Positions 15,557 to 55,824 of a stretch of 64,000 bases of DNA are shown piece after piece. Positions within the stretch are counted from its first letter, which is position 1, and each line of letters starts with the position of its first letter. A program made the translations under genes and the position numbers. Source of the DNA: a bacterium (lineage in GTDB: Bacteria; Bacillota; Bacilli; Lactobacillales; Streptococcaceae); assembly GCA_905221115.1 (NCBI GenBank), contig CAJNBX010000006.1, forward strand, positions 37,285 through 101,284, written 5' to 3'. Below the pieces are notes generated by a model. The model saw only the letters and a program-made list of their open reading frames with translations. It was not told the origin of the DNA and made no database searches.

Positions 15557-15560
15557 ATTA

Positions 15561-15702
15561 ATACTCAATAAAAATCAAAGAGCAAACTAGCCGCAGGTTG
15601 CTCAAAGCACCGCTTTGAGGTTGTAGTTAAGACTGACAAAGTCAGTCACATATATACGTCAAGGCGACGTTGACGCGGTTTGAAGAGATTTTCGAAGAGT
15701 AT
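15561..15702 (-). repeat. BOX element (boxC-boxB-boxA orientation)
   Basis: Begins ATACTCAATAAAAATCAAAG and ends TTTTCGAAGAGTAT, the two ends of the mitis-group BOX repeat, with one boxB-like segment (CACCGCTTTGAGGTTG...GACAAAGTCAGTC) between. Confidence 0.85.
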
Positions 15703-15754
15703 AAAAATCCTCAAGATACTTTCTTTTATCCTTTAGTTTATAAGGAGAACACCT

Positions 15755-16018
15755 ATGAAAAAAACTGCTATTTCTATCTTTGCTCTCCTAGTTTTAGGAG
15801 TTAGCTGTTTGTTCCTATTCAGCCAGCAAAGTTATAAAAAAACAGTCGTTCAATACTATGCTAACGACCAGAACCTGCCCAATAGGATAACTTATAGTGA
15901 ATATAGCGACAAACGAGAAGCCAACTACGGTGGCACTCTAAACATCACGTCTATCAAACAAGCTAATGACGGAGTTTATGCAACCTATGAAGGGCAATTG
16001 ACACCTCTCCAATATTGA
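15755..16018 (+). CDS. YxeA-family small secreted or lipid-free exported protein
   Basis: 87 residues. A hydrophobic N-terminal segment (residues 5-24) serves as signal peptide or anchor. A small extracellular domain follows with paired strands (YSEYSDKREANYGGTLNITS). Size and layout suit the YxeA (DUF1093) family of unknown function. AAGGAG precedes the ATG. It lies between two BOX elements. Confidence 0.65.
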   Translation: MKKTAISIFALLVLGVSCLFLFSQQSYKKTVVQYYANDQNLPNRITYSEYSDKREANYGGTLNITSIKQANDGVYATYEGQLTPLQY

Positions 16019-16114
16019 TAAATTGATAACCAGCCTGTCTTCATCTAGTCATGCTGGTTTTTAAGTTCATTCTAAATCCTTACCTATTCTTCCCAACTGT
16101 GCTATACTTAATTT

Positions 16115-16219
16115 ATACTCAATGAAAATCAAAGAGCAAACTAGGAAACTAGCCGCAGGCTGTACTTGAGTACGGCAAGGCGACGTTGACGCAGTTTGAA
16201 TTTGATTTTCGAAGAGTAT
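16115..16219 (-). repeat. BOX element lacking boxB (boxC-boxA)
   Basis: Begins ATACTCAATGAAAATCAAAG and ends TTTTCGAAGAGTAT; boxC (CTAGCCGCAGGCTG) and boxA (CAAGGCGACGTTGACGCAG) are directly joined. It lies about 28 bases before the metallo-hydrolase start and may affect its expression. Confidence 0.85.
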
Positions 16220-16247
16220 TAGTGCATTCTTTGAGATTGGAGCCAAT

Positions 16248-20666: not shown

Positions 20667-21596
20667 ATGAAAAAATTAGGTACATTACTTGTTCTCTTTC
20701 TTTCCGTCATTGCTCTTGTAGCATGTGCTAGCGGAAAAAAAGATGCAGCTTCTGGTCAAAAACTAAAAGTTGTTGCTACAAACTCAATCATCGCTGATAT
20801 TACTAAAAATATTGCTGGTGACAAGATTGATCTTCACAGTATCGTTCCTGTTGGTCAAGACCCACACGAATACGAACCACTTCCTGAAGACGTTAAGAAA
20901 ACTTCTCAAGCTGATTTGATTTTCTATAACGGTATCAACCTTGAAACAGGTGGCAATGCTTGGTTTACAAAATTAGTAGAAAATGCTAAGAAAACTGAAA
21001 ACAAAGACTACTTTGCAGTCAGCGAAGGCGTTGATGTTATCTACCTTGAAGGCCAAAACGAAAAAGGCAAAGAAGACCCACACGCTTGGCTTAACCTTGA
21101 AAACGGGATGATTTTTGCTAAAAACATCGCAAAACAATTGAGCGCTAAAGACCCTAGCAACAAGGAATTCTACGAAAAAAATCTCAAAGAATATACTGAA
21201 AAACTAGACAAGCTTGATAAGGAAGCAAAAGCTAAATTCAACAATATCCCTGCTGAGAAAAAACTCATCGTAACCAGCGAAGGATGCTTCAAATACTTCT
21301 CTAAAGCCTACGGTGTCCCAAGTGCCTACATCTGGGAAATCAATACTGAAGAAGAAGGAACACCTGACCAAATCAAGACCTTGGTTGAAAAACTTCGCCA
21401 AACAAAAACTCCTTCACTCTTTGTAGAATCAAGTGTGGATGACCGTCCAATGAAAACTGTATCTCAAGACACAAACATCCCAATCTACGCTCAAATCTTT
21501 ACTGACTCTATCGCAGAACAAGGTAAAGAAGGCGACAGCTACTACAACATGATGAAATACAACCTTGATAAGATTGCTGAAGGATTGGCAAAATAA
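20667..21596 (+). CDS. psaA: Manganese-binding lipoprotein PsaA
   Basis: 309 residues starting at ATG 20667, behind TTGGAGG; the four codons upstream in the longer frame are the ribosome-binding site itself. The lipobox is IALVAC (Cys about residue 20). Metal ligands of the TroA-like fold are visible: His in GQDPHEYEP, His in [11 protein letters not shown], a Glu in the EINTEEE region and the Asp in IFTDSIAEQ. Compared with the pneumococcal protein as I know it, about a dozen residues differ, including Cys for Ala in TSEGCFKYF. The last base of its stop codon is the first base of a BOX element. Confidence 0.97.
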
Positions 21597-21708
21597 TACT
21601 CTTCGAAAATCTCTTCAAACCACGTCAGCTTTATCTGCAACCTCAAAGCGATGCTTTGAGCAACCTGTGGCTAGCTTCCTAGTTTGCTCTTTGATTTTCA
21701 TTGAGTAT
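21596..21708 (+). repeat. BOX element (boxA-boxC orientation)
   Basis: Begins ATACTCTTCGAAAATCTCTT and ends TTTGATTTTCATTGAGTAT with a partial boxB (CAACCTCAAAGCGATGCTTTGAG). It starts at the third base of the psaA stop codon, so it sits inside the psa transcript between psaA and tpxD. Confidence 0.9.
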
Positions 21709-21832
21709 AAGCCTCTGAAAAACGTCATTCTCACATGAGCTGGCGTTTTTTCTATGCCCACATTTCCGGTCAAATCATTGGAAAATTCCGACTGTTTCAG
21801 CTAAAATGGAAGAAAAAAGATTGGAGTATCTT

Positions 21833-41120: not shown

Positions 41121-42480
41121 TTTCTAAACTTTCTACCAACTTGGCTAGATTCATAGAGTTAGAGCCTTTGAGCAGGATTTGGTCATGAGCCCCAAGACGT
41201 TCCTTGACTTGCTTGATTAGATCTTCAAATTGGTCCTCATCAGCTGTTTTTTTGAAGTAGTAAACATGGCCGATTGGAAACATTTGACTGGCAAGTTGGG
41301 CCAATTCTGCGATATCTTCTCCATAGAAAATCACGGTATCAATCACATCTGGCGAGAGACTCAAAATCATCTGGTTATGAAGTTGAACAGACTGGTCACC
41401 AAGTTCCTTCATATCCGCCAAGACAGCGATTTTTTTGCCACCTTCATTGGCTGGAATGGCAGAGAAAGTCTCTAAAATCAGCTTCATAGCAGTTGGATTG
41501 GCATTATACACATCTGATAGAATATCTGCACCATTGGCTGCTTTCTTCCACTCAGTACGGTTACGCGTCAATTCAAGATTTTGGAAGGCCTGACAAATCT
41601 GCTCCTCTGAAACTCCTTCTTGTAGGGCAACATAAGACGCAATCATAGCATTGGTGGCATTGTACTTACCAGTCACTGGCAAATCGAGGACTTGTTCCAA
41701 GAAATTAGCCTTAAAGGTCAGACTATCCTTGCGCTCAACCAAGTCTGTAATTTCTAGCTCTGCTCCTTGCCCAAAACGGACCACCTTTTTATCAGTTGGC
41801 AAGTAGTCCTCTACAATCGGGTCAGCTGGCGCTAAAAGCAAGGAACCAGATGCCATCCCGTCTGCAATTTGCATTTTTCCTTTAGCGATTTCCGAACGAT
41901 CTTTGAAAAAGGCCAAATGAGCTTCTCCAACCAAGGTTACGATGGCTGTCTTTGGATGAGCCAATTCAGACAAGAGATGAATATCTCCCAAGTGATCCTG
42001 CCCCATCTCCAAGACTAACTTTTCTGTTCCTTCAGGCATATGGAGAACTGTGTAGGGAAGGCCAATCTCGTTATTGTAGTTGCCTTGTGTTTTGTAAGTT
42101 TTGTAGGTTGTTGATAGCAAGTGTGCTAACATATCCTTGGTCGTTGTTTTACCATTTGAACCCGTAACCGCAAAGACATCAACAGTCGTTTTTTCAAGAT
42201 AGTAGGCTGCTAGTTGCTGAAAGGCAGTCAGAACATCATCTACTAGAATGTAAGGATGATTTGCAACCTCTTTCTCAGACAGGGTTGCAGCAGCGCCATT
42301 TTCAAAAGCTCTTTCGATAAAGTCATGACCGTCACGCGCACCTTTGAGGGGCACAAATAAATCTCCTGTCGCAATCAAACGACTGTCAAACTCAGCTTTC
42401 TCTAACTGGGTGTCCTCAAAGATACTGACATCATTTTTAGCTCCTACAACTTGAGCCACTTCATGGATTGTTAATTTCAT
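41107..42480 (-). CDS. murF: UDP-MurNAc-tripeptide:D-Ala-D-Ala ligase
   Basis: 457 residues. ATP loop TGSNGKTTT (residues 106-114), ALVLEMGQDHLGDI-like carbamyl-lysine region, and DVYNANPTAMK of the Mur ligase C-terminal domain. It adds D-Ala-D-Ala to the peptidoglycan precursor made with ddl, its upstream neighbour. Confidence 0.97.
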   Translation of the reverse strand: MKLTIHEVAQVVGAKNDVSIFEDTQLEKAEFDSRLIATGDLFVPLKGARDGHDFIERAFENGAAATLSEKEVANHPYILVDDVLTAFQQLAAYYLEKTTVDVFAVTGSNGKTTTKDMLAHLLSTTYKTYKTQGNYNNEIGLPYTVLHMPEGTEKLVLEMGQDHLGDIHLLSELAHPKTAIVTLVGEAHLAFFKDRSEIAKGKMQIADGMASGSLLLAPADPIVEDYLPTDKKVVRFGQGAELEITDLVERKDSLTFKANFLEQVLDLPVTGKYNATNAMIASYVALQEGVSEEQICQAFQNLELTRNRTEWKKAANGADILSDVYNANPTAMKLILETFSAIPANEGGKKIAVLADMKELGDQSVQLHNQMILSLSPDVIDTVIFYGEDIAELAQLASQMFPIGHVYYFKKTADEDQFEDLIKQVKERLGAHDQILLKGSNSMNLAKLVESLENECK

Positions 42481-46640: not shown

Positions 46641-47492
46641 ATGGACAAACCAGATATCGCAACTGTCATTGATTCACATTTTGAAGAAATGACAGACCTA
46701 GAGCAAGAAATCGCTCGCTATTTTTTGCAAGCTGAAACGATTACAGATGATTTATCTTCCCAACAGGTCACTCAAAAATTACATATCTCTCAGGCTGCAC
46801 TAACTCGCTTTGCTAAAAAATGTGGCTTTACTGGCTACCGAGAATTCATTTTCCAATACCAACACCAAGCAGAGAAACAAGACACCTATTCTCACAAACA
46901 CAGTCCACTGACCAAACGAGTCCTCAGAAGCTATAGCAATATGAGGGAACAAACGCAAGACTTGATTGACGAAGTCCAACTAGAACGAATTGCCCAATTA
47001 ATCGAAGATGCTGAGCGTGTCTACTTCTTCGGAACAGGGAGTTCTGGCCTTGTTGCTCGTGAAATGAAATTACGCTTCATGCGTCTAGGTGTGGTCTGCG
47101 AGGCTTTGACAGACCAAGACGGCTTTGCTTGGACAACCAGCATTATGGATGAGAATTGTCTAGTACTCGGTTTCTCACTTTCTGGTACAACTCCCTCTAT
47201 TTTAGACAGTTTATTAGACGCCAAGGAGATGGGGGCAAAGACGGTACTCTTTTCAAGTGTTCCCAATAAAGATAGCCAGACCTATACAGAGACCGTTCTC
47301 GTTGCTAGCCACAGCCAACCTTCCTATATCCAACGAATATCCGCTCAACTCCCTATGCTTTTCTTTATCGATTTGATTTATGCCTACTTTTTAGAAATCA
47401 ATCGTGAGAGCAAGGAAAAAATCTTTAATAGCTATTGGGAAAATAAGAAACTCAACGGCTATCGTAGACAAAAACGTATCAGAAAATCCTAG
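46641..47492 (+). CDS. nanR: RpiR-family regulator of the sialic-acid genes
   Basis: 283 residues. N-terminal RpiR helix-turn-helix (SSQQVTQKLHISQAALTRFAKKCGFTGYREF) and a SIS sugar-phosphate-binding domain (VYFFGTGSSGLVAREMKLRF; VLGFSLSGTTPSILDSL). It corresponds in position to the pneumococcal NanR, an activator of the nan cluster that responds to sialic-acid catabolites. In this genome the nan genes begin only after a 7.4-kb island. AAAGGAG precedes the ATG. Confidence 0.88.
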   Translation: MDKPDIATVIDSHFEEMTDLEQEIARYFLQAETITDDLSSQQVTQKLHISQAALTRFAKKCGFTGYREFIFQYQHQAEKQDTYSHKHSPLTKRVLRSYSNMREQTQDLIDEVQLERIAQLIEDAERVYFFGTGSSGLVAREMKLRFMRLGVVCEALTDQDGFAWTTSIMDENCLVLGFSLSGTTPSILDSLLDAKEMGAKTVLFSSVPNKDSQTYTETVLVASHSQPSYIQRISAQLPMLFFIDLIYAYFLEINRESKEKIFNSYWENKKLNGYRRQKRIRKS

Positions 47493-47518
47493 TTTGGCTA
47501 AGCCAAACTAGGATTTTT
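47481..47518 (+). terminator. nanR terminator (left copy of a duplicated palindrome)
   Basis: AATCCTAGTTTGG-CTAAG-CCAAACTAGGATTTTTAT; the nanR stop codon TAG lies inside the left arm. An almost identical palindrome at 54915-54947 ends nanK. Confidence 0.9.
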
Positions 47519-47553: not shown

Positions 47554-47904
47554 TTAGTCGTATCTTGACTTAGTCTTAAATAATTTCATGTAATCACTTT
47601 TTGAAGGGAGTAAATAAGCAAGTCTGACAGTATCCTCAACAATTGTATATAATACGATGTAATCCTTACTCAAGGTCAACCCTCGCGTTTGGTAGTGAGG
47701 ATCTAATTTCTTACCAAATTTTTCATCGGCATCAAATCCAGCTTGGGGGAAAATTTCTAGCCGATTAATATCCTTTCTAATATTGGCTACTTTTCGTCTC
47801 GCAGCCTCTACAGAACCAATTTCCTCTGCTATATACTGATATATTTTATCCAGACTATCAATCACTCTAGGAGAATACAAAATCCTATATCTTTTATAAT
47901 TCAT
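47554..47904 (-). CDS. RelE/ParE-family toxin
   Basis: 116 residues. RelE/ParE fold segments are YSPRVIDSLDKIYQYI, AARRKVANIRKDINRLEIFPQAG, and a C-terminal YIVLYTIVEDTVRLAYLLPSKSDY. By family it is an mRNA-cleaving or gyrase-targeting toxin; which of these cannot be told here. It overlaps the antitoxin gene by 11 bases. It is the leftmost gene of the accessory island and may stabilise it. Confidence 0.85.
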   Translation of the reverse strand: MNYKRYRILYSPRVIDSLDKIYQYIAEEIGSVEAARRKVANIRKDINRLEIFPQAGFDADEKFGKKLDPHYQTRGLTLSKDYIVLYTIVEDTVRLAYLLPSKSDYMKLFKTKSRYD

Positions 47905-48181
47905 AGCGTGTCACGACATCCTCATCTGTCAAGTAATTTCCAGCCTCAATCTTGGCATAACTTTCTTGAACTTCTGCTTGTAATTGTCTAAACAAGTACT
48001 CCTTCTCCAATTCCTCTTCACTCAGTAAATCTACTTCATTTGTTACGGCAACATTCTTTAAAAATAATCTGAGTGCCGATGAAAGAGAAAGATTTTTTTC
48101 TTTTAACACTTCCATTGCATCATTTACTAATTCTCTATTAGCTTGGAAGGTCACAACTTTACTTGAATTTGCTATAGTCAT
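47894..48181 (-). CDS. RelB/DinJ-family antitoxin
   Basis: 95 residues. An N-terminal ribbon-helix-helix (VVTFQANRELVNDAMEVLKEKNLSLSSALRLFLKNV) binds DNA and represses the operon; an acidic C-terminal tail (LLSEEELEKEYLF...) would neutralise the toxin. AAAGGAATTATATAA precedes the ATG. Confidence 0.88.
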   Translation of the reverse strand: MTIANSSKVVTFQANRELVNDAMEVLKEKNLSLSSALRLFLKNVAVTNEVDLLSEEELEKEYLFRQLQAEVQESYAKIEAGNYLTDEDVVTRYEL

Positions 48182-48210
48182 TTTATATAATTCCTTTATA
48201 TATTTTATTT

Positions 48211-48238
48211 ATTATCTCACAATTATAAAGAAAGTCAA
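48211..48238 (-). promoter_or_regulatory. Promoter of the toxin-antitoxin operon
   Basis: Minus strand TTGACT (complement of 48233-48238), 16-base spacer, GATAAT (complement of 48211-48216). Confidence 0.6.
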
Positions 48239-48297
48239 GGGGCTTTGATTTGAAAGATGCTGGAAAAAATTTTTGTGTCACATATCTAATATACAAA

Positions 48298-48960
48298 CTA
48301 ACTTCTAAAGAAAGCCAAATGATATTCTCCATTCAATTTAACTGCTACTTTCTCGTGGATAGACTGATTTTTTAAAGAACAAATTTCTCCATATTTCCAA
48401 CTTTCGTGCTCCCCTGATAATCTAGTGACTGACTTCACTTGATTATCTAAGTTAGCAACTGTAGCACTAAGCTCTTCTTTTGGAATAATTTCTTCAGTAA
48501 TTGTAAATAATTGTTCCCCTATCTTCAACTCTCTGGCTTCTTGCTCATTGATAGCAAATTCTCCTACTAAGCAAACATTAAATAAGTCAGAAACTTTTAT
48601 AAGTTCTTCTTTAGAAATATTATCAAGTAGTTTACATTTATAGAAAGTACTATCAATTTTTATGGCAAATTCTCTATTCTTGGTTTGATATAAGTCACCA
48701 ATCTCCAACAAATCATTCTTTATTTCATCATTGGAATCATCGTAAGATATTTCATAAATATCATAATGATTGCTTACTTTACTTTCAATATCTTCATATA
48801 AAATTAATTGATTAGTTACACCATAATGCTCTCCTTTATAATCAAATCGATTATAACTTGAGTCGAGAAATTTAACATCATACTTCTCATATGTGCATCC
48901 AGTCAATCCAAGTAAACTTAAGAAAAAAATTACGGAAAGATAGATCTTTTTGAATTTCAT
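48298..48960 (-). CDS. Lantibiotic immunity lipoprotein, NisI-like
   Basis: 220 residues. The lipoprotein signal peptide ends LLGLTGCTYEK. The mature part shows the NisI layout of two similar domains: RFDYKGEHYGVTNQ early, and WKYGEICSLKNQSIHEKVAVKLNGEYHLAF at the end. The latter matches NisI (WDYGEIHSIRGKSLTEAFAVEINDDFKLA) closely as I recall it. NisI-type proteins bind the lantibiotic at the membrane and protect the producer. It follows a lanC stub, the same lanC-lanI order as in nisin loci. AGGAGG precedes the ATG. Confidence 0.75.
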   Translation of the reverse strand: MKFKKIYLSVIFFLSLLGLTGCTYEKYDVKFLDSSYNRFDYKGEHYGVTNQLILYEDIESKVSNHYDIYEISYDDSNDEIKNDLLEIGDLYQTKNREFAIKIDSTFYKCKLLDNISKEELIKVSDLFNVCLVGEFAINEQEARELKIGEQLFTITEEIIPKEELSATVANLDNQVKSVTRLSGEHESWKYGEICSLKNQSIHEKVAVKLNGEYHLAFFRS

Positions 48961-48970
48961 AGTTCTCCTC

Positions 48971-49123
48971 CTAATTTTCTATAGTTAAATTATCAAAAAT
49001 CAATAACGCCTCTCTCCAATATGTCTTTACAAACCTATTTTGGATATGAAGTAAAGTCAAAACAATTCCCAAACTTCCATCCAAAAATTTAACACTCCAT
49101 TCATTTCCATCAGAATATATAAT
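48971..49123 (-). pseudogene. C-terminal stub of a lantibiotic cyclase (LanC)
   Basis: Between the lanG stop and lanI, an open frame ending at TAG 48971-48973 reads SDGNEWSVKFLDGSLGIVLT, then LLHIQNRFVKTYWREALLIF. Such a -LDGSLGIVLTL--- helix followed by W-x-x-ALLI is how LanC/NisC cyclases end. The zinc-binding Cys-His part is missing and there is no start codon. Supported by its place directly before lanI. Confidence 0.5.
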
Positions 49124-49785
49124 TAAACACCTTTTCTGCTTACAACTACTAAATTAGCAACAAACAATAATACAACATAAAAAGTTAAAGCTAATAAATT
49201 AGTTGTGCTTCTAAAATTATTTTCTAAAATTATATTAACTGGTAAAATTACTGGAATCCAAAAAATATTAAGAAAAACTTTATTTGTTGCAAATAATATA
49301 AATAAACTTTCTACAACAGCAATAAGTAAATTGCCACCTTTCGCAATAAACAATGTCAATAGCATGTGGAAATGATTTAGCAATATTAGTAATAACCAAC
49401 TAACTATTCCTACGTAAAAATAATATGAAAAGTGTTCTAACTCTATACCTACAACTACCCATAAAGGAATAGTAAGTAAAGATAATAGTAAATCTAACAC
49501 AAAAATTTTCGCTCCCCATATACTGGCTGTATTTCTCGAGCCTTTAATATTCTGATAATTATTAGCATTGATTTCTTGTTCAGATACTAATAAAGTGATT
49601 ATCGTAGTTATCATACAATAGCCTAACATGGGTAAAAAGATAATATTTTCCAATACAATTGTGTTATTTACAGATAATATGTAAATTGGAATTGTCAATA
49701 GTTGTATAGTAGACAAAATCAAAATAATGTATAGTTGATACGAACCTTTAAATTTAATCATTTCACTTTTTAGCAATTGGATCAT
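49123..49785 (-). CDS. Lantibiotic immunity ABC permease, LanG/NisG-like
   Basis: 220 residues, six hydrophobic segments, and an N-terminal MIQLLKSEMIKFKGSYQLYI typical of lantibiotic-immunity permeases. It overlaps the upstream permease by 23 bases. I keep the first start because GGAGG lies 11 bases before it. With LanF and LanE it expels the lantibiotic from the membrane. Confidence 0.78.
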   Translation of the reverse strand: MIQLLKSEMIKFKGSYQLYIILILSTIQLLTIPIYILSVNNTIVLENIIFLPMLGYCMITTIITLLVSEQEINANNYQNIKGSRNTASIWGAKIFVLDLLLSLLTIPLWVVVGIELEHFSYYFYVGIVSWLLLILLNHFHMLLTLFIAKGGNLLIAVVESLFILFATNKVFLNIFWIPVILPVNIILENNFRSTTNLLALTFYVVLLFVANLVVVSRKGV

Positions 49786-50503
49786 TACTTAACCTCCAAT
49801 TTAACATTAACAAAGAAACAATAAATAGAATCAATGATAGAAATACGGTAAATACTACCATTTTAACGTCTGTTACATGATTTGTTAAATCTAAATCTCC
49901 TGACGGTTTTATATACATAAGACTATAAGCAATTTTATAATGATATGTAAAAGGAAAGAAGAACCAAAAGCTACTTTGAGCGATAAAAGGTGCAACCAAA
50001 AAACAAATCAAGGAGTTAATAGATACTAAGATATAGGGGTTGATCCGTTTCGAAAATAGATACAAGAGTGGCAATACCCATATGGATGTTATCGAAATAA
50101 GTACTAAACAAATTAAGTCACCAATTATATTCAATGATATTAAGTCGCCATACAAAAAATTACTTGTAAATAATAATATAGCTAAAAACCATACGTTCGA
50201 AATGAGTAAATCTTTTAATTTTAAAAGTATCTTTACGATATATATTTTTATGCTATCATTTCGAAAGTATATATTCTGGAAGTTTCCTGCAGCTTCTTCT
50301 GCTTCATAATCATATAAAAATAACAATCCAATAAGCGTGTACAAAAAGACGGCTTCCCACCAATATATTGAAAAACTTTCTAGAATACTCGGTCCAACAA
50401 GTAATACAGCTATTAAAATCGACAATCCAGGAGCTATTATCAAGAATTTTTTGGATGTATTTTTTCGCTGTTTTAACCATTCTGATTTAAATATTTTTAT
50501 CAT
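49763..50503 (-). CDS. Lantibiotic immunity ABC permease, LanE/NisE-like
   Basis: 246 residues, six hydrophobic segments, starting MIKIFKSEWLKQRKNTSKKF, the pattern seen at the N-terminus of MutE/EpiE/NisE immunity permeases. ATGA overlap with the ATPase gene upstream. Strongly AT-rich compared with the chromosome around it. Confidence 0.8.
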   Translation of the reverse strand: MIKIFKSEWLKQRKNTSKKFLIIAPGLSILIAVLLVGPSILESFSIYWWEAVFLYTLIGLLFLYDYEAEEAAGNFQNIYFRNDSIKIYIVKILLKLKDLLISNVWFLAILLFTSNFLYGDLISLNIIGDLICLVLISITSIWVLPLLYLFSKRINPYILVSINSLICFLVAPFIAQSSFWFFFPFTYHYKIAYSLMYIKPSGDLDLTNHVTDVKMVVFTVFLSLILFIVSLLMLNWRLSNDPIAKK

Positions 50504-51186
50504 ATTGCGTCACCTCCATGAACAATTCTTATAAATAAAGATTCTAAATCATCACTTTGAACATTCGAACCATCGTAAAAAATTTGACCATCATGTAAAA
50601 TAACAACTTTATCTGCCACTTTACTAACTTCATACAGTTGATGGCTAGATAAAAGAATTGTCATTCCTGATTTCTTTAAAGAAATCATTAAATTCAATAA
50701 TTCCTTTATACCATCTGGATCCAATCCATTGGTAGGTTCATCTAAAATGAGCAAATCTGGACTAGTAATTATTGCCATACCTAATCCCAAACGTTGTTTC
50801 ATACCTAAAGAAAAGCTCCCTGCTTTTTTCTTTCCCGTATTAGATAGCCCAATCAAGTTTAATACTTCATTAATTCGTTCGTCAGAAATGTCATATAACA
50901 ATGCTCTTGTTTTTAAGTTATCATAAGCAGATAAGTTCATGTAGATAGCTGGAGTTTCAATAAGCGCTCCAATCTCATATATACCCGCATTTTTTTTCCC
51001 ATTAAAAATAACCGTACCACTATCAGCATTTTCAAGACCAAAAATAATCTTCATAATTGTTGATTTTCCTGCACCATTAATACCTAATAATCCACAAATA
51101 CTCCCCTCTTTTATTTCAAAAGAAATATTTTTCAGTACTTCTCTATCCTTATATGATTTTCTAAGTTTTTGAACTTGTATATTCAT
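50500..51186 (-). CDS. Lantibiotic immunity ABC ATPase, LanF/NisF-like
   Basis: 228 residues. Walker A GINGAGKST, signature FSLGMKQRLGLGMAI, Walker B LLILDEPTNGLDPDGI, H-loop SSHQL. The E-loop variant and SLGMKQR signature are typical of the BcrA/NisF immunity ATPases. First gene of lanFEG; a LanR-type operator and promoter lie just upstream. AAAGGAGG precedes the ATG. Confidence 0.88.
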   Translation of the reverse strand: MNIQVQKLRKSYKDREVLKNISFEIKEGSICGLLGINGAGKSTIMKIIFGLENADSGTVIFNGKKNAGIYEIGALIETPAIYMNLSAYDNLKTRALLYDISDERINEVLNLIGLSNTGKKKAGSFSLGMKQRLGLGMAIITSPDLLILDEPTNGLDPDGIKELLNLMISLKKSGMTILLSSHQLYEVSKVADKVVILHDGQIFYDGSNVQSDDLESLFIRIVHGGDAI

Positions 51187-51218
51187 AACTATAATTCCTC
51201 CTTTATTTATACTTGTAT

Positions 51219-51250
51219 GTTATACTTTATTTTTCAAAATTTGTTCAGAA
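51219..51250 (-). promoter_or_regulatory. lanFEG promoter with degenerate LanR operator
   Basis: Minus strand TCTGAACAAATTTTGAAAAAT upstream of TATAAC (complement of 51219-51224). Aligned without gaps it matches the three-TCT operator at 54055-54087 at 16 of 21 positions, keeping TCT-N8-T(C/T)T. Confidence 0.6.
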
Positions 51251-51269
51251 TTTCCAATTTTACAAAATT

Positions 51270-51311
51270 AAAAAAATAGACAGTCCTCAATTTAGAAAAC
51301 CATCTATTTTT
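51270..51311 (-). terminator. Terminator between lanK and lanFEG
   Basis: Minus strand AAAATAGA...TCTATTTTTTT, so lanRK and lanFEG form separate transcripts. Confidence 0.7.
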
Positions 51312-51356
51312 ATACATAACTATTATATGGAAGCTATCTAATATATCCTTACAGAA

Positions 51357-52697
51357 TTATTTTTTAATAAGCAACGTCACTTGAGCGCCACCTCTATCTG
51401 GATTTGATAAAAACAATTCTCCTAAATGTCTAGTTGCAACTTGTTTAGCAAATGCTAACCCTAAACCATAGTGCTTATTATTCCTACCTTTATTCTCAGT
51501 ATAAAATAACTTATCTGCATTTAATAAGGACTGTTCAGTAAAAGGCAGACCATTATTCCACACTACAAAATTAATATACTCTGTTTCCTCAATGATAGTA
51601 AGCGTAACTTTTTTTTCTCCAGAACTATATCTTGCTGCATTTGCTAAAATGTTAATTAATGCCCGATTTAAATTAAAGCGATTTCCCTTAAAAAATATTA
51701 ATTTTGTAGTATTAATAATTTTGAAATCAACCTTTGCATTATTCATTACAGATTTTGCTTCTACTGACAGCTCACTTAAAAATTCGGATAAATGTATCTG
51801 TTCTCCATAATCTTTATCTTCAATTAGTAATCTTGAATAATCAATCATTGAACTAAAGTATCTTTCAAAAACTACTATACTGTTATTCATTGACTGAGTG
51901 TATTCCTTCTGTTGAACAGTCAAGTTAGTTAATTCAAGCAACTCTAAATTTCCCTTTAGTACTGTTAAAGGAGTTTTTACATCATGAGCTAATGCACCAA
52001 CTTGAAAAGATAAATCTTCCTTCTCCCTTCTCTCTGATTTGAGTAAATTAGTTAACTCGTCGTCCTTTTGATATAATACAGAAAGAATTTCATCGAACTC
52101 TTGTATTTGAGCAGGAATGTTTTTATCTTTAAATGTTAACTGTCCCATGTTTAAAGTCTTTTTTTGTATGAGGAGAAAATTATTTGAAAATTCTTTTATT
52201 AATCTTGTAAGTGACCAAATGAGTAAAATTGTTTCGATAACGAAGAAAAATAAATAAGAAAATAGATTAAATGAAAAGTGACGCAAATTCGGATTAACAA
52301 ACTCAGGTATCATGGGTTGCCTGACAGTAAGTACAATCTCTGAATTAGCGTAATACCCATAATACACTGCATCATTACTTATGGATTCATTTTTAGCAAA
52401 AACTTCTCGATAGGCTGGCAAATCCTTTTTTTGATAGTTACCCTCTTCAATTGTACCCGTCTTGCGATTAAATACAACATAGTCAAATATAGAGTTATTC
52501 ATTGCTTGGACTACATCACTTAAATTGCTGCTATCACTCACTGAAATTTCCATTTTAGAGCCGTATACATTTAATTGTCCAGTAAAAACAAGTAAATAAG
52601 TAAATATAAAAAATAAAAGTATACTCAGTAACGTACCTGTTACTAGTTCTAAAACAGTCCTTATTATGCGCCCTCTAATTGTACTCTTCTTACTCAT
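51357..52697 (-). CDS. Lantibiotic-sensing histidine kinase, NisK/SpaK-like
   Basis: 446 residues. Two membrane helices (about 12-38 and 140-165) frame an extracellular domain of about 100 residues, as in NisK and SpaK, which bind the lantibiotic outside the cell. Phospho-acceptor VGALAHDVKTPLTVLKGN; N box LINILANAARYSS; G2 HYGLGLAFAKQ. It overlaps the regulator gene by 8 bases. Confidence 0.85.
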   Translation of the reverse strand: MSKKSTIRGRIIRTVLELVTGTLLSILLFFIFTYLLVFTGQLNVYGSKMEISVSDSSNLSDVVQAMNNSIFDYVVFNRKTGTIEEGNYQKKDLPAYREVFAKNESISNDAVYYGYYANSEIVLTVRQPMIPEFVNPNLRHFSFNLFSYLFFFVIETILLIWSLTRLIKEFSNNFLLIQKKTLNMGQLTFKDKNIPAQIQEFDEILSVLYQKDDELTNLLKSERREKEDLSFQVGALAHDVKTPLTVLKGNLELLELTNLTVQQKEYTQSMNNSIVVFERYFSSMIDYSRLLIEDKDYGEQIHLSEFLSELSVEAKSVMNNAKVDFKIINTTKLIFFKGNRFNLNRALINILANAARYSSGEKKVTLTIIEETEYINFVVWNNGLPFTEQSLLNADKLFYTENKGRNNKHYGLGLAFAKQVATRHLGELFLSNPDRGGAQVTLLIKK

Positions 52698-53373
52698 GCC
52701 ACTTGTATCCCATACCTCTAACTGTTTTTATAGGATTAATTCCATACGATGAGAATTTTAATCTTATTTGATAGATATACTCAGATATTGAACGAAAGAG
52801 GGTTTCAGCATCATCATCATAAACATTTTCATATATATCTTGTACAGTAAAAATTTTTCTTGGATTGCTAGATAATAGCTCTATGATATCATATTCCCTA
52901 CTTGTAAAAGCAAGACTATCTCCATTAATACAAACAATTTTTTCTTGTAAATAAATCGTTATTGGGGATAATTCTCGAACAATTTGATTACTTAATTCAC
53001 CTTGTTTGTATCGTTCTTCTCGTTTGAGATTTGCAGCAACTTTGGCAATTAATTGATTGATGCTGAAAGGTTTTGTAATATAGTCATCTCCTCCTAAATT
53101 CAACCCTGATACTATATCATCTTCGGTATCTTTTGCACTAACAAAAATAATAGGAGATCTTACTTTATTTCTAATCTGCTTACAAATTTGCATACCATCT
53201 ATATTAGGCATCATTACATCTAATAAAATCAAATCAAATCCTTTGAAATTATTAATATTGATTGGTACGGTGACTTCTTGATACGTCGTTACCTGATAGT
53301 TTTTCATCTCTAAAATAGTTCGCATCAGTTTCAAAATTTCAAAATCGTCATCTACAACTAATATCTTATACAT
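52690..53373 (-). CDS. Lantibiotic response regulator, NisR/SpaR-like
   Basis: 227 residues. Receiver domain with DDD, Asp in LILLDVMMPNIDG and Lys in YITKPFS; OmpR-type winged helix (LAFTSREYDIIELLSSNP; EYIYQIRLKFSSYGINPIKTVRGMGYKW). Paired with the kinase. NisR-type regulators bind direct TCT repeats with 11-base periodicity, which are present at 54055-54087 and 51228-51250. AGGTG precedes the ATG. Confidence 0.87.
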   Translation of the reverse strand: MYKILVVDDDFEILKLMRTILEMKNYQVTTYQEVTVPININNFKGFDLILLDVMMPNIDGMQICKQIRNKVRSPIIFVSAKDTEDDIVSGLNLGGDDYITKPFSINQLIAKVAANLKREERYKQGELSNQIVRELSPITIYLQEKIVCINGDSLAFTSREYDIIELLSSNPRKIFTVQDIYENVYDDDAETLFRSISEYIYQIRLKFSSYGINPIKTVRGMGYKWHE

Positions 53374-53502
53374 TCTATCACCTCAAAATATTTTAGAGAA
53401 CTATCTGCAAAGCTCCGTATTCTTGACAAAGAATAGTCTCAATACATCAATTTGTAATTGTTCTTTATTTTTTAAATTATATTTTTAAAAAATAGTACAA
53501 AT

Positions 53503-54045
53503 CTATTTTACACTATCTTGAACAAAATTCGTAATATTTAATAATCTAATTTGAGTGCCGTCAATGTCATTACCTATACAGCAATTATCATACAATAATT
53601 TAATTACCTCATCTGGTTGATCTTTCAAATGATATTTCTCAATGATTAACCCAAGTGCTGCTGAAACCTTTGGTGTTGAAATGGATGTCCCATAAGCATA
53701 AGTATATTTCCCTTCAAGTGTCGGTACAATAACCCATTCTTTTTCAAATGTTTTATCATTTGCCCACTGTTCATATCCAACTGTTGCTAGTTTATGACTT
53801 CCTCCTCCTGTTGCATATATATCTATTACATTATTTCCTTTATTTGAAAAACTAGATACAAAATCGTTATCATTTACTGACCCTACTGTTACAACATTGT
53901 CTAATCCCGCAGGAATATCCATAACTTTTCCATCTATATGTGAATAATCCTTCCCCTTAAGTTCTCCAAGGTAATGTTTCAATGATTCTTGATTATTTTA
54001 ATCTAGACCCTCATCACCTAATGAAGAAACAATTATTGAACATTG
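53503..54045 (-). pseudogene. Truncated lantibiotic leader peptidase (LanP/NisP-like subtilisin)
   Basis: The remaining 159-codon frame (53503-53982) contains the subtilisin C-terminal catalytic part: GLDNVVTVGSVNDND, then GTSISTPKVSAALGLI with the active-site serine. The homologous reading continues upstream as SIIVSSLGDEGLD, interrupted by TAA at 53998-54000. The Asp and His of the triad and the signal peptide are gone. It could not cleave a leader. It precedes lanR, as nisP precedes nisR. Confidence 0.75.
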
Positions 54046-54054
54046 ACATTTGAG

Positions 54055-54087
54055 ATTATATCAGAGAAAATTCAGATTTTATTCAGA
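54055..54087 (-). promoter_or_regulatory. Nisin-type LanR operator and promoter (TCT-N8-TCT-N8-TCT)
   Basis: On the minus strand three TCT triplets (87-85, 76-74 and 65-63 of 540xx) are each separated by exactly 8 bases, followed by GA and a consensus TATAAT (54060-54055). This is the architecture of the nisA promoter. It now points directly into the broken lanP, with no precursor gene between, so the lanA gene that it probably served has been deleted. Confidence 0.65.
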
Positions 54088-54238
54088 GAAAAGATTGTCT
54101 ATACAATAAAAACAGTAAGAATAGTTACTGTTGGAGTTTAAATTTAACAAAAATTATCTTTTAAAATTTTTATATTAATACTAGATTTGTTCGGCATCTT
54201 ATTGAATTTTTAACCAGCTAATCTTACTTCAAATAGTA

Positions 54239-54697
54239 TCGAACAAGTCTATTGACGAAACGGGAATCGGCCGCTATCTCTATCATCCTTATGCACGGAC
54301 TCCTAGAGGCAAGAAAGTCTATGAAAAGATTAGAGGACGGCGTTTTGAGCGGAGTTCAATTGTTGTAGGACAAGTAGATGGAGAGTTTATAGCTCCCATG
54401 ATTTACAAAGAAAGTATGACGAGCGACTTCTTTGTGAAATGGTTCAAAACGCAACTCCTACCTGCTTTGAAGACACCTCATATCATTGTCATGGGCAATG
54501 CTAGTTTTCATCCCAAGAACATTTTGGATGAACTCTGCATCCAAGATAGACACTTTTTCTTACCTCTACCACCTTATTCACCAGATTTGAATCCTATTGA
54601 GCAAGCTTGGGCTATCTTAAAAAAGAAATTAACGGATTTATTAAGGGAAGTCCCAAATATTTTTGAATGTTTAGATTGCTTTTTTAAAACTAAATGA
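54239..54697 (+). pseudogene. IS630-family transposase, C-terminal half
   Basis: An open frame with DETGIGRYLYHPYARTPRGK, IIVMGNASFHPKN and LPPYSPDLNPIEQAWAILKKKL: the DDE_3 catalytic core of IS630 transposases, of the type found as IS630-Spn1 in pneumococci. The N-terminal helix-turn-helix half is missing and the DNASFH-type motif reads GNASFH. A defective remnant at the right end of the lantibiotic locus. Confidence 0.85.
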
Positions 54698-54699
54698 CT

Positions 54700-54910
54700 A
54701 TACTATCACGTTCCTGTTCGTATAAACACGATTTCGCTATTCCTTCCTCTTCCGATTCTTATTTCCAGAATCAGACTTAAAACGGTTTATCCCCAAACCG
54801 TTTTAATCCGCTACCTCACGATAGTCAGGATTGGAAATTGTTATTGGCTTCACTGGTAGCCGGTGCCCAAGAAGGACTTACACCTCAGATGAACTACATG
54901 CCCGTCGTAC
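54700..54910 (-). other. Probable 5' fragment of a group II intron (class C-like)
   Basis: Read on the minus strand from 54910 the sequence starts GTACGACGGGCATG (group II introns begin GUGCG). Soon after comes GAGGTGTAAGTCC, a conserved domain I segment, and then several strong helices including AAAACGGTTT-GGGGAT-AAACCGTTTT (54779-54804). It abuts the tail of the nanK terminator, the favoured insertion position of class C introns. It has no reverse transcriptase and is cut off at the IS630 remnant. Confidence 0.5.
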
Positions 54911-54912
54911 CT

Positions 54913-54948
54913 AGAAAATCCTAGTTTGGTTAAACCAAACTAGGATTG
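54913..54948 (-). terminator. nanK terminator (right copy of a duplicated palindrome)
   Basis: Minus strand CAATCCTAGTTTGG-TTTAA-CCAAACTAGGATTTTCTAG; the nanK stop lies in the first arm. It differs from the copy at 47481 only in the loop and tails. Confidence 0.9.
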
Positions 54949-55824
54949 TTTTGTTTTAAAGTGATAATAAGCACCCAACATACCTGCTGTATTTTGGTGA
55001 TGGGCAAATTCTAATCGTGTTTTTTCAGCTAGGCTTGGCACCAAAGCCTCTTTCAAGGCTTTGCGGATCTTGGGTTTGAGGATAGCCTCTTGTCCCATGA
55101 TACCGCCACCGAGAATGACCACCTCTGGATTGGCCACATAGCAAATATTAGCCAGACCTTTCCCAAGGTAATCTACCATCCGATCAATACCAGCCATGCA
55201 AATCTTGTTTCCTTCAGTTGCTTCCTTAAAGATGCGTCGGCCATTCCACTGATCAACATCTTCTCCATGTGCTTCAGCTACATATTTCACTAAAGCTGTT
55301 GTAGAAGCCAAATCTTGGAACGCTCCATCCTGCATATGCATATAACCAACTTCACAGGCCGAATTGCTAAATCCATGGAAGACTTTCCCATCCATAATCA
55401 AGCAACCACCGATACCGGTTCCAATAGTCAAGCAAAGAGTAACACTCGCTCCCTTGCCTGAACCAGATACTGCCTCAGCAAGACCTGCACAGTTGACATC
55501 ATTTTCAATCTCACAAGGAATATTAAAGCTAGTCTCGATTTCCTTCTTGAACTGAGTTCCTGCATAATTTGGAATCTGAGGCCCAGCATAGAAAATCTCA
55601 CCCTTGTCTGGATCCACCATTCCTGCAGAAGAAATGGCAACACCTGCTACTGGGCCTTTTTCTAAATAGCTGGCTACAATATCTTTGGTCTTTTGTAAGA
55701 TATGAGGTCCACCTTTATGCGCCTCTGTTGGCATTTCATGCGATTCAACAAGTTGGCCTTCTTGGTCGATCAAACCATATTTGATGTTGGTTCCACCGAT
55801 ATCAATTGCAACGTAGTGTGTCAT
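54940..55824 (-). CDS. nanK: ROK-family N-acetylmannosamine kinase
   Basis: 294 residues. ATP loops AIDIGGTNIKYGLID and LTIGTGIGGCLI; ENDVNCAGLAEA of the ROK family. The zinc-binding cysteine cluster of many ROK proteins is reduced here (SACEVGYMHM). Position next to the lyase and nanE suggests ManNAc as substrate, giving ManNAc-6-P. AAGGAGG precedes the ATG; last gene of the nan transcript. Confidence 0.9.
   Translation of the reverse strand: MTHYVAIDIGGTNIKYGLIDQEGQLVESHEMPTEAHKGGPHILQKTKDIVASYLEKGPVAGVAISSAGMVDPDKGEIFYAGPQIPNYAGTQFKKEIETSFNIPCEIENDVNCAGLAEAVSGSGKGASVTLCLTIGTGIGGCLIMDGKVFHGFSNSACEVGYMHMQDGAFQDLASTTALVKYVAEAHGEDVDQWNGRRIFKEATEGNKICMAGIDRMVDYLGKGLANICYVANPEVVILGGGIMGQEAILKPKIRKALKEALVPSLAEKTRLEFAHHQNTAGMLGAYYHFKTKQS

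Follow-up and report, generated by a model that had tools for sequence, protein, structure and literature searches.

Biosynthesis-free immunity modules have already been described around nisin. The accessible part of one report lists 20 of 44 Streptococcus equinus genomes with nseRKFEG but no production genes, the alleles being close to those of a complete nisin E cluster, and 59 of 710 Lactococcus lactis strains that hold nisRKFEG without other biosynthetic genes and survive in nisin (PMC9958725). We analysed a stretch of 64,000 nucleotides of contig CAJNBX010000006.1 (the window), which carries a locus of this kind, an inserted island at 48256-54911. Like the S. equinus modules, it has a nisin-type regulator, kinase and LanFEG transporter without production genes. 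Its R, K, F, E and G are intact and 96-100% identical to those of S. pseudopneumoniae 75_SPSE, with no production genes alongside, so that at locus level it is a module of the nseRKFEG type. We consider it likely that a nisin-type cluster was cut down here to a stand-alone inducible immunity operon, with which this oral streptococcus would probably detect and resist the nisin-like peptides of its neighbours, making none itself.

The immunity lipoprotein sets the island apart from the known modules. In S. equinus, NisI is described only in complete clusters, and with nisI at one end of the nisin E cluster and nisP at the other, their co-retention would be hindered (PMC9958725); in the window NisI is kept behind lanFEG, and the lanP and lanC remnants reveal how the locus arose. 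The L. lactis strains that hold nisRKFEG, or nisI together with nisP, have lost biosynthesis and kept immunity as the window has, and some survival in nisin was measured there, according to the same text. They keep nisI beside nisP, whereas in the window a deletion carried lanI to lanFEG from the distal end of the cluster. The S. mitis pldFEKR fragment of the pneumolancidin locus, from the same bacterial group, keeps immunity and regulator genes with its precursors stopped, but it belongs to another lantibiotic system and no NisI lipoprotein is named for it in the text available (PMC5729180). The partial bacteriocin clusters of pneumococci, for which a 'cheater' idea was put forward, hold immunity and transport genes with the bacteriocin gene gone, although as far as the accessible text goes that inference was drawn from lactococcin 972-like streptococcins, unlike the nisin-type locus of the window (PMC6120550). 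The words mitis and pseudopneumoniae are both absent from the main text of PMC12506125, and in the literature searched, mostly open-access articles without their supplements, no description of a nisin-type remnant of the S. mitis group was found. Biosynthesis-free nisin RKFEG modules are therefore already known (PMC9958725); the co-retention of NisI through deletion is new.

All genes of the island are on the minus strand except an IS630 remnant. Six open reading frames (ORFs) are intact between 48298 and 53373. By ORF and profile match, lanR (52690-53373) encodes an OmpR-type response regulator of 227 residues, and lanK (51357-52697) a NisK-type histidine kinase of 446 residues with two membrane spans and the H-box AHDVKTPL. 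The immunity ABC transporter is formed by the ATPase LanF (50500-51186) and the permeases LanE (49763-50503) and LanG (49123-49785), and they are followed by lanI (48298-48960), for an immunity lipoprotein of 220 residues. In LanFEG exporters the ATPase has an E-loop replacing the Q-loop. The LanF of the window reads GALIETPAIY, with the E-loop (IETP) where the Q-loop would stand, and has Walker A, Walker B and the motif FSLGMKQR. LanF (TIGR03740, 271 bits, cut-off 310) and LanE (TIGR03732, 92 bits, cut-off 145) fall below the curated family cut-offs, and LanG, 54-60% identical to LanG of nisin P-like loci, gave no Pfam or NCBIfam match; their assignment to LanFEG is therefore based on position and on identity to the LanFEG of complete loci. 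Between lanG and lanI there is a lanC remnant (48974-49117), the last 48 of 425 codons, 94% identical in tblastn to codons 378-425 of LanC from 75_SPSE (L043). At the other end a lanP remnant (53506-54048) corresponds to codons 275-455 of the 455-codon lanP of a relative and has one in-frame stop. This agrees with the earlier note on this DNA, which had described intact lanR, lanK, lanF-E-G and lanI with a truncated lanP and a lanC stub in one strand direction.

The same note had reported that precursor, LanB and LanT genes are absent, and both searches that we made in the window bear it out. LanB of a relative gave zero tblastn matches at E 1e-3, LanT gave four generic ABC transporter matches of 25-28% identity, and the sole leader/core motif among the small frames was in a chance 29-codon frame at 41527. 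Compared with a producing class I cluster, lanA, LanB, LanT, a full LanC and a full LanP are all missing.

By its close loci the window belongs to the S. mitis/S. pneumoniae group. A genus search with LanK over 284 genomes gave eight close genomes of 93-98% identity, with loci in S. pseudopneumoniae (G206, which we took as 75_SPSE), S. mitis, Streptococcus sp. M334 (G236), SK643 (G238), S. xiaochunlingii (G305), SK564 (G150), G148, G146 and G139. LanB is absent genome-wide from 7 of 7 reduced close relatives. A LanC-family match was absent from 6 of these 7 and from 4 of the 5 more distant reduced genomes examined (in all, G148, G146, G238, G139, G305, G150, G289, G104, G082 and G010), and present in G236, G206 and G296; the exception among the close genomes, M334, retains part of lanC at the locus and encodes a second LanC-type protein elsewhere. 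Among plasmid records, the LanK relatives were all below 60% identity (8 records).

The nearest production genes are found in 75_SPSE. One contig holds full LanP, R, K, F, E and G, and a second one LanB (987 residues), LanT (591), LanC (425) and LanI. It is noted that of the two contig ends (L042, L043) one closes in a nisin-type leader, MSNDDFNLDLVKVTKDNSGASPRI, and the other opens just 5' of lanB with a nisin-like core, TSVSLCTPGCVTG onward. Considering that the leader-side end matches the IS630 remnant of the window (95% over 61 bp), lanA was probably split there by an IS630 element; an assembly gap is the alternative, the pieces being unjoined. The order P-R-K-F-E-G-A-B-T-C-I is complete, with nisin P-like precursors, in G012, G014 and G095; in G113 the order is the same but the contig ends within lanP, and G280 lacks no gene, though its lanF and lanK are 18 kb apart. 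Identity of the nisin P-type loci to the window is 75% for R and 54-55% for K. These clusters share gene order and operator type with the window and have the precursor, LanB, LanT, LanC and LanP that it does not hold in full. Since 75_SPSE keeps LanB, LanT, LanC and precursor pieces and the nisin P-like loci share the gene order, the reading of the island as the remnant of a nisin-type cluster of this order is supported. The earlier note had proposed to look for a complete relative; most of the source cluster survives in 75_SPSE.

The identity of LanI was examined at three levels. NF033433 (NisI/SpaI family) matched with 90 bits in two stretches (cut-off 35), and the sequence matched the nisin immunity protein of PDB entry 5xhb with E 1.2e-5. 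The AlphaFold model had a mean pLDDT of 76 and a pTM of 0.48; with it, the top Foldseek match was full-length NisI (5xhb, E 4e-14), the whole-chain TM being only 0.42-0.46, with the single NisI domains next (TM about 0.7 each, by target length) and SpaI after them. By profile, sequence and modelled fold LanI is a NisI, with a predicted two-domain fold and the lipobox LTGC. Three Streptococcus phage records (MN270259, MN270258 and MN270279) contain a hypothetical protein whose identity to LanI is 23% across 97% of its length. At that identity it is no close source.

The path of the reduction can be followed in the relatives. One and the same lanG/lanC junction, with lanG followed by lanC from codon 378 onward and then lanI, is present in the window, G148, G146, SK643, SK564 and G139; 6 of 6 agree over the 21 bp that span the joint, and these copies occupy different chromosomal sites. 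M334 is less reduced, having full lanP, R-K-F-E-G, two other ORFs, lanC codons 226-425 and lanI. Two extra ORFs between lanG and the remaining biosynthetic genes are seen in M334 (L045 13623-14652) and in 75_SPSE (L042 1424-2452); the first of them, behind lanG, gave no Pfam match. S. xiaochunlingii retains only R, K and lanI, with lanI directly behind the lanF promoter and the joint, read by eye, in alike Shine-Dalgarno stretches of lanF and lanI. Outside the close group, G289 and G104 have P-R-K-F-E-G and then lanI, with different left ends of the deletion: of the hairpin that stands 3' of lanG in the complete locus of G014 (-24 kcal/mol, z -2.8), one arm is left in G289 and none in G104. 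Their R and K proteins are identical or nearly so to those of LanB-bearing loci, G104 being equal to G280 and G289 standing beside G014. G082 and G010 have R-K-F-E-G-I, the lanG stop adjoining the ribosome site of lanI. The locus of G082 (L058 7969-12991) is clean, with no biosynthetic remnant and unrelated flanks, and is perhaps the end stage of the same path; as a candidate for the published Sst bacitracin locus it was not supported, its two downstream neighbours being a Sua5-type protein and a sodium:alanine symporter. All reduced forms with lanI put it behind the lanF promoter. Among the close copies, only SK564, with a frameshift in lanK, and S. xiaochunlingii, with its missing FEG, depart from six open ORFs.

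We then considered how frequent such forms are. The detailed search covered G001 and the 32 best LanK genomes of the 122 that matched at E 1e-30, the other 90 being excluded; as the loci were picked by LanK, its presence is no finding. A NisI family match above the cut-off was obtained in 21 of the 33 genomes, 13 without LanB (among them G296, and G180 with kinase and NisI on different contigs) and 8 with LanB (among them G283, with the NisI match far from the locus). Over all 284 genomes LanB was detected in 16 and the NisI family in 53, many of the latter single-domain. The largest database clusters had 2507 members for LanK, 1739 for LanI and 284 for LanB; they point to sensor and immunity genes being commoner than LanB, but we gave these counts no weight because distinct sequences are counted and LanB is longer. 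On the tree of R plus K, with 32 rows of which 9 have LanB, the LanB label requires 7 changes, of which starred branches force at least 6; gains and losses are alike possible, and the clustering of the label does not exceed that in shuffles (as low in 111 and 115 of 500). From this distribution the LanB-free forms appear to have arisen several times.

Operators of the NisRK regulon are of the TCT-N8-TCT type and stand before lanF and lanP or lanA. In the window, boxes predicted as operators fit this type before lanF (TCTGAACAAATTTTGA, 51234-51249, minus strand) and in the former lanP promoter, where three TCTGA repeats 11 bp apart (54061-54087, minus strand) are now 5' of the lanP stub and lanR-lanK. 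In the 64 kb there are two exact matches to the pattern TCTGANNNNNWTYTGA, at 51234-51249 before lanF and at 54072-54087 before the lanP stub, with 0.43 expected and two or more in 6 of 100 shuffles; this count is weak evidence, because the pattern was drawn from these very sites, and with one mismatch the 11 occurrences found against 11.4 expected are at chance level. Conservation is better evidence: the window and the eight close genomes share TCTGAACAAATTTTGA without a difference (9 of 9), and in S. xiaochunlingii it stands directly before lanI. Nisin P-like loci have similar repeats before lanF and lanP, their lanF boxes ending in ACTGA and being missed by the strict pattern. A terminator-like hairpin was detected by the hairpin scan in the lanK/lanF gap (51272-51311, minus strand), one of 3 found in the region against 1.8 expected by chance. 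Prediction of sigma-70 promoters was uninformative (48 sites, 43 expected), and Rfam at gathering scores gave nothing in the window.

The sequence shows that a deletion from just 3' of lanG to lanC codon 378 took out the biosynthetic genes, and with A-B-T-C gone, lanI, now about 160 bp behind lanG, has come to lie behind the lanF promoter; most of lanP is gone as well, and its nisin-box promoter region is still 5' of lanR-lanK. For the working of the operon the following mechanism is proposed. LanK would sense the nisin-like peptide of another strain, LanR would bind the boxes, and lanF-E-G, the lanC stub and lanI would be transcribed together. The outside peptide would in this way induce both protections, and exporter and lipoprotein would shield a cell that is not a producer; the module may be kept for protection in mixed oral communities. 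As described in the accessible text of PMC9958725, the nisABTCI and nisFEG promoters of the nisin A locus are under NisRK control, and nisI and nisRK have constitutive promoters too. The lanC remnant may likewise contain a promoter of lanI itself, which cannot apply to S. xiaochunlingii because no lanC is kept there. In its widest form the proposal is that repeated deletions put the distal lanI under the LanRK-controlled lanF promoter, giving inducible R-K-F-E-G-I or R-K-I operons of several origins in Streptococcus that outnumber the LanB clusters sampled and move between strains with exchange of sensor-kinase alleles; this we advance tentatively, at close to an even chance.

To delimit the island, the nanR loci of 20 genomes were compared with the window by blastn. 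In G001, G148, G298, G138 and G149 the nanR-nanK interval contains relE/relB and joins window position 48255 to 54912 or 54913, and the island is therefore 48256-54911. The note had placed the start at 47554, which takes in a pair of RelE/ParE-type toxin and RelB/ParD-type antitoxin genes (47554-48181); this pair is present in island-free sites and was discarded as part of the lantibiotic system. In G029, G207, G236, G238 and G146 relBE is missing too, and G139 carries relE/relB and the island at the same place as the window, so that the slot is seen empty, with relE/relB, or with both. Near-identical palindromic terminator-like sequences (47481-47518 and 54913-54950, 92% over 38 bp) flank it. 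Inside the island, the IS630-family transposase remnant (54236-54697, plus strand, left end approximate) gave Pfam DDE_3 at 2e-16 on the ORF 54398-54697 and NF033545 at 54.6 bits (cut-off 100), its upstream part being read in frame. The locus of M334 is near rplJ/rplL, ahead of further mobile-looking genes that we take to be conjugative-element and PezAT genes, surroundings which suggest an integrative element as carrier. Elsewhere in the window, short repeats at about 15558-16223 and 21591-21716, present in several places in related genomes too, are perhaps BOX-type elements.

A key aspect is whether the kept genes are under selection or are only a recent leftover that has not decayed yet, brought by recombination and without effect on fitness. 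The five shared-junction copies compared have 95.5 nonsynonymous and 112.5 synonymous changes (omega 0.32), with values by gene of 0.10 for lanR, 0.14 for lanF, 0.40 for lanK, 0.41 for lanG, 0.44 for lanE (not significant) and 0.45 for lanI; lanG and lanI lose significance when transitions are given a weight of 6. Changes private to single copies were chosen as more likely to postdate the deletion, and in the six shared-junction copies they were 46 nonsynonymous and 57 synonymous (omega 0.31). These 103 changes include no stop, which without constraint has a probability of about 0.011, the frameshifted SK564 lanK being left out. Two further points speak against a mere leftover: six genomes share this reduced form, with only one gene no longer open and the operator unaltered, and LanB-free forms appear to have originated repeatedly. 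The kept genes are likely under constraint. Several observations weigh on the other side. SK564 lanK is frameshifted; so is lanI of G296, where lanC survives from codon 54 on; and no lanI is present at the locus in 10 of the 22 other LanB-free loci of the R plus K tree (G302, G093, G264, G069, G090, G307, G134, G092, G130 and G212), some with R-K-F-E-G and some with barely more than R-K, so NisI is often lost from LanB-free loci. The private changes of the window itself, 7 nonsynonymous and 4 synonymous, give no signal of constraint alone. The contrast of dN/dS between lanRKFEGI and lanP, which the earlier note had proposed as a check, was uninformative: the lanP stub has 1 nonsynonymous and 3 synonymous changes over 171 codons and the lanC stub about equal numbers, and as even these dead stubs are unrelaxed, dN/dS cannot separate kept from lost genes. 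Compared with G139, FEG is 99.8% identical, the IS part 99.0%, lanR 98.0%, lanI 97.4% and lanK 95.8%, and flanking genes only 83-95%; an identity of FEG and the IS part so far above the flanks indicates that the island probably spread recently and that its alleles recombine, and the lower value of lanK at the same site makes an exchange of kinase alleles between islands probable. Recombination may also bring in changes made in complete loci. Moreover, the gene order by itself makes it likely that lanI ends up fused to FEG after a deletion of the biosynthetic genes. Of the selection for the immunity part that the note had suggested, the omega of about 0.3 in R-K-F-E-G-I stands, and a contrast with the stubs does not; alleles have probably been exchanged as well. 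On balance we judge the passive relic unlikely, and the inducible immunity operon is the reading we prefer.

It might also be supposed that the module has switched from nisin-like lantibiotics to bacitracin, host peptides or another envelope stress as the stimulus to which it responds. The accessible texts offer precedents: deletion of sstFEG of S. suis, a NisFEG-like pump under BceSR control, made the minimal inhibitory concentration of bacitracin four-fold lower (PMC6819616), and the sal locus of S. pyogenes is thought to have taken other roles (PMC4162386). In LanK the outer part varies more (18 of 112 positions) than HisKA (2 of 60), though the N-terminal segment varies most (8 of 35). However, the profile scan of the island ORFs and seven flanking genes found no BceAB-type or FtsX-type permease, so that the neighbourhood forms no bacitracin module; a NisI-fold lipoprotein is kept, and complete nisin P-like loci have similar operators. 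NisFEG and NisI from L. lactis gave no bacitracin tolerance in the assays covered by the text available, no zinc being added (PMC12506125). Such a change of function seems improbable to us. It is less probable still that the strain is a producer with precursor and modification genes elsewhere in its genome: a near relative does have a LanB-LanT-LanC set, but nothing of the kind lies elsewhere in the window, and the reduced close genomes speak against it with LanB in none of 7 and a LanC-family match lacking in 6.

With the inducible immunity operon as the preferred reading, the bacteriocin 'cheater' idea becomes a concrete series, from the complete cluster through the split-precursor and half-deleted forms to the sensing-plus-immunity operon and the bare R-K-I. 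If the operon works, streptococci of the human mouth that produce no lantibiotic of this type would sense and resist nisin-like peptides, which would bear on the persistence of producers and on plans for nisin variants against streptococci.

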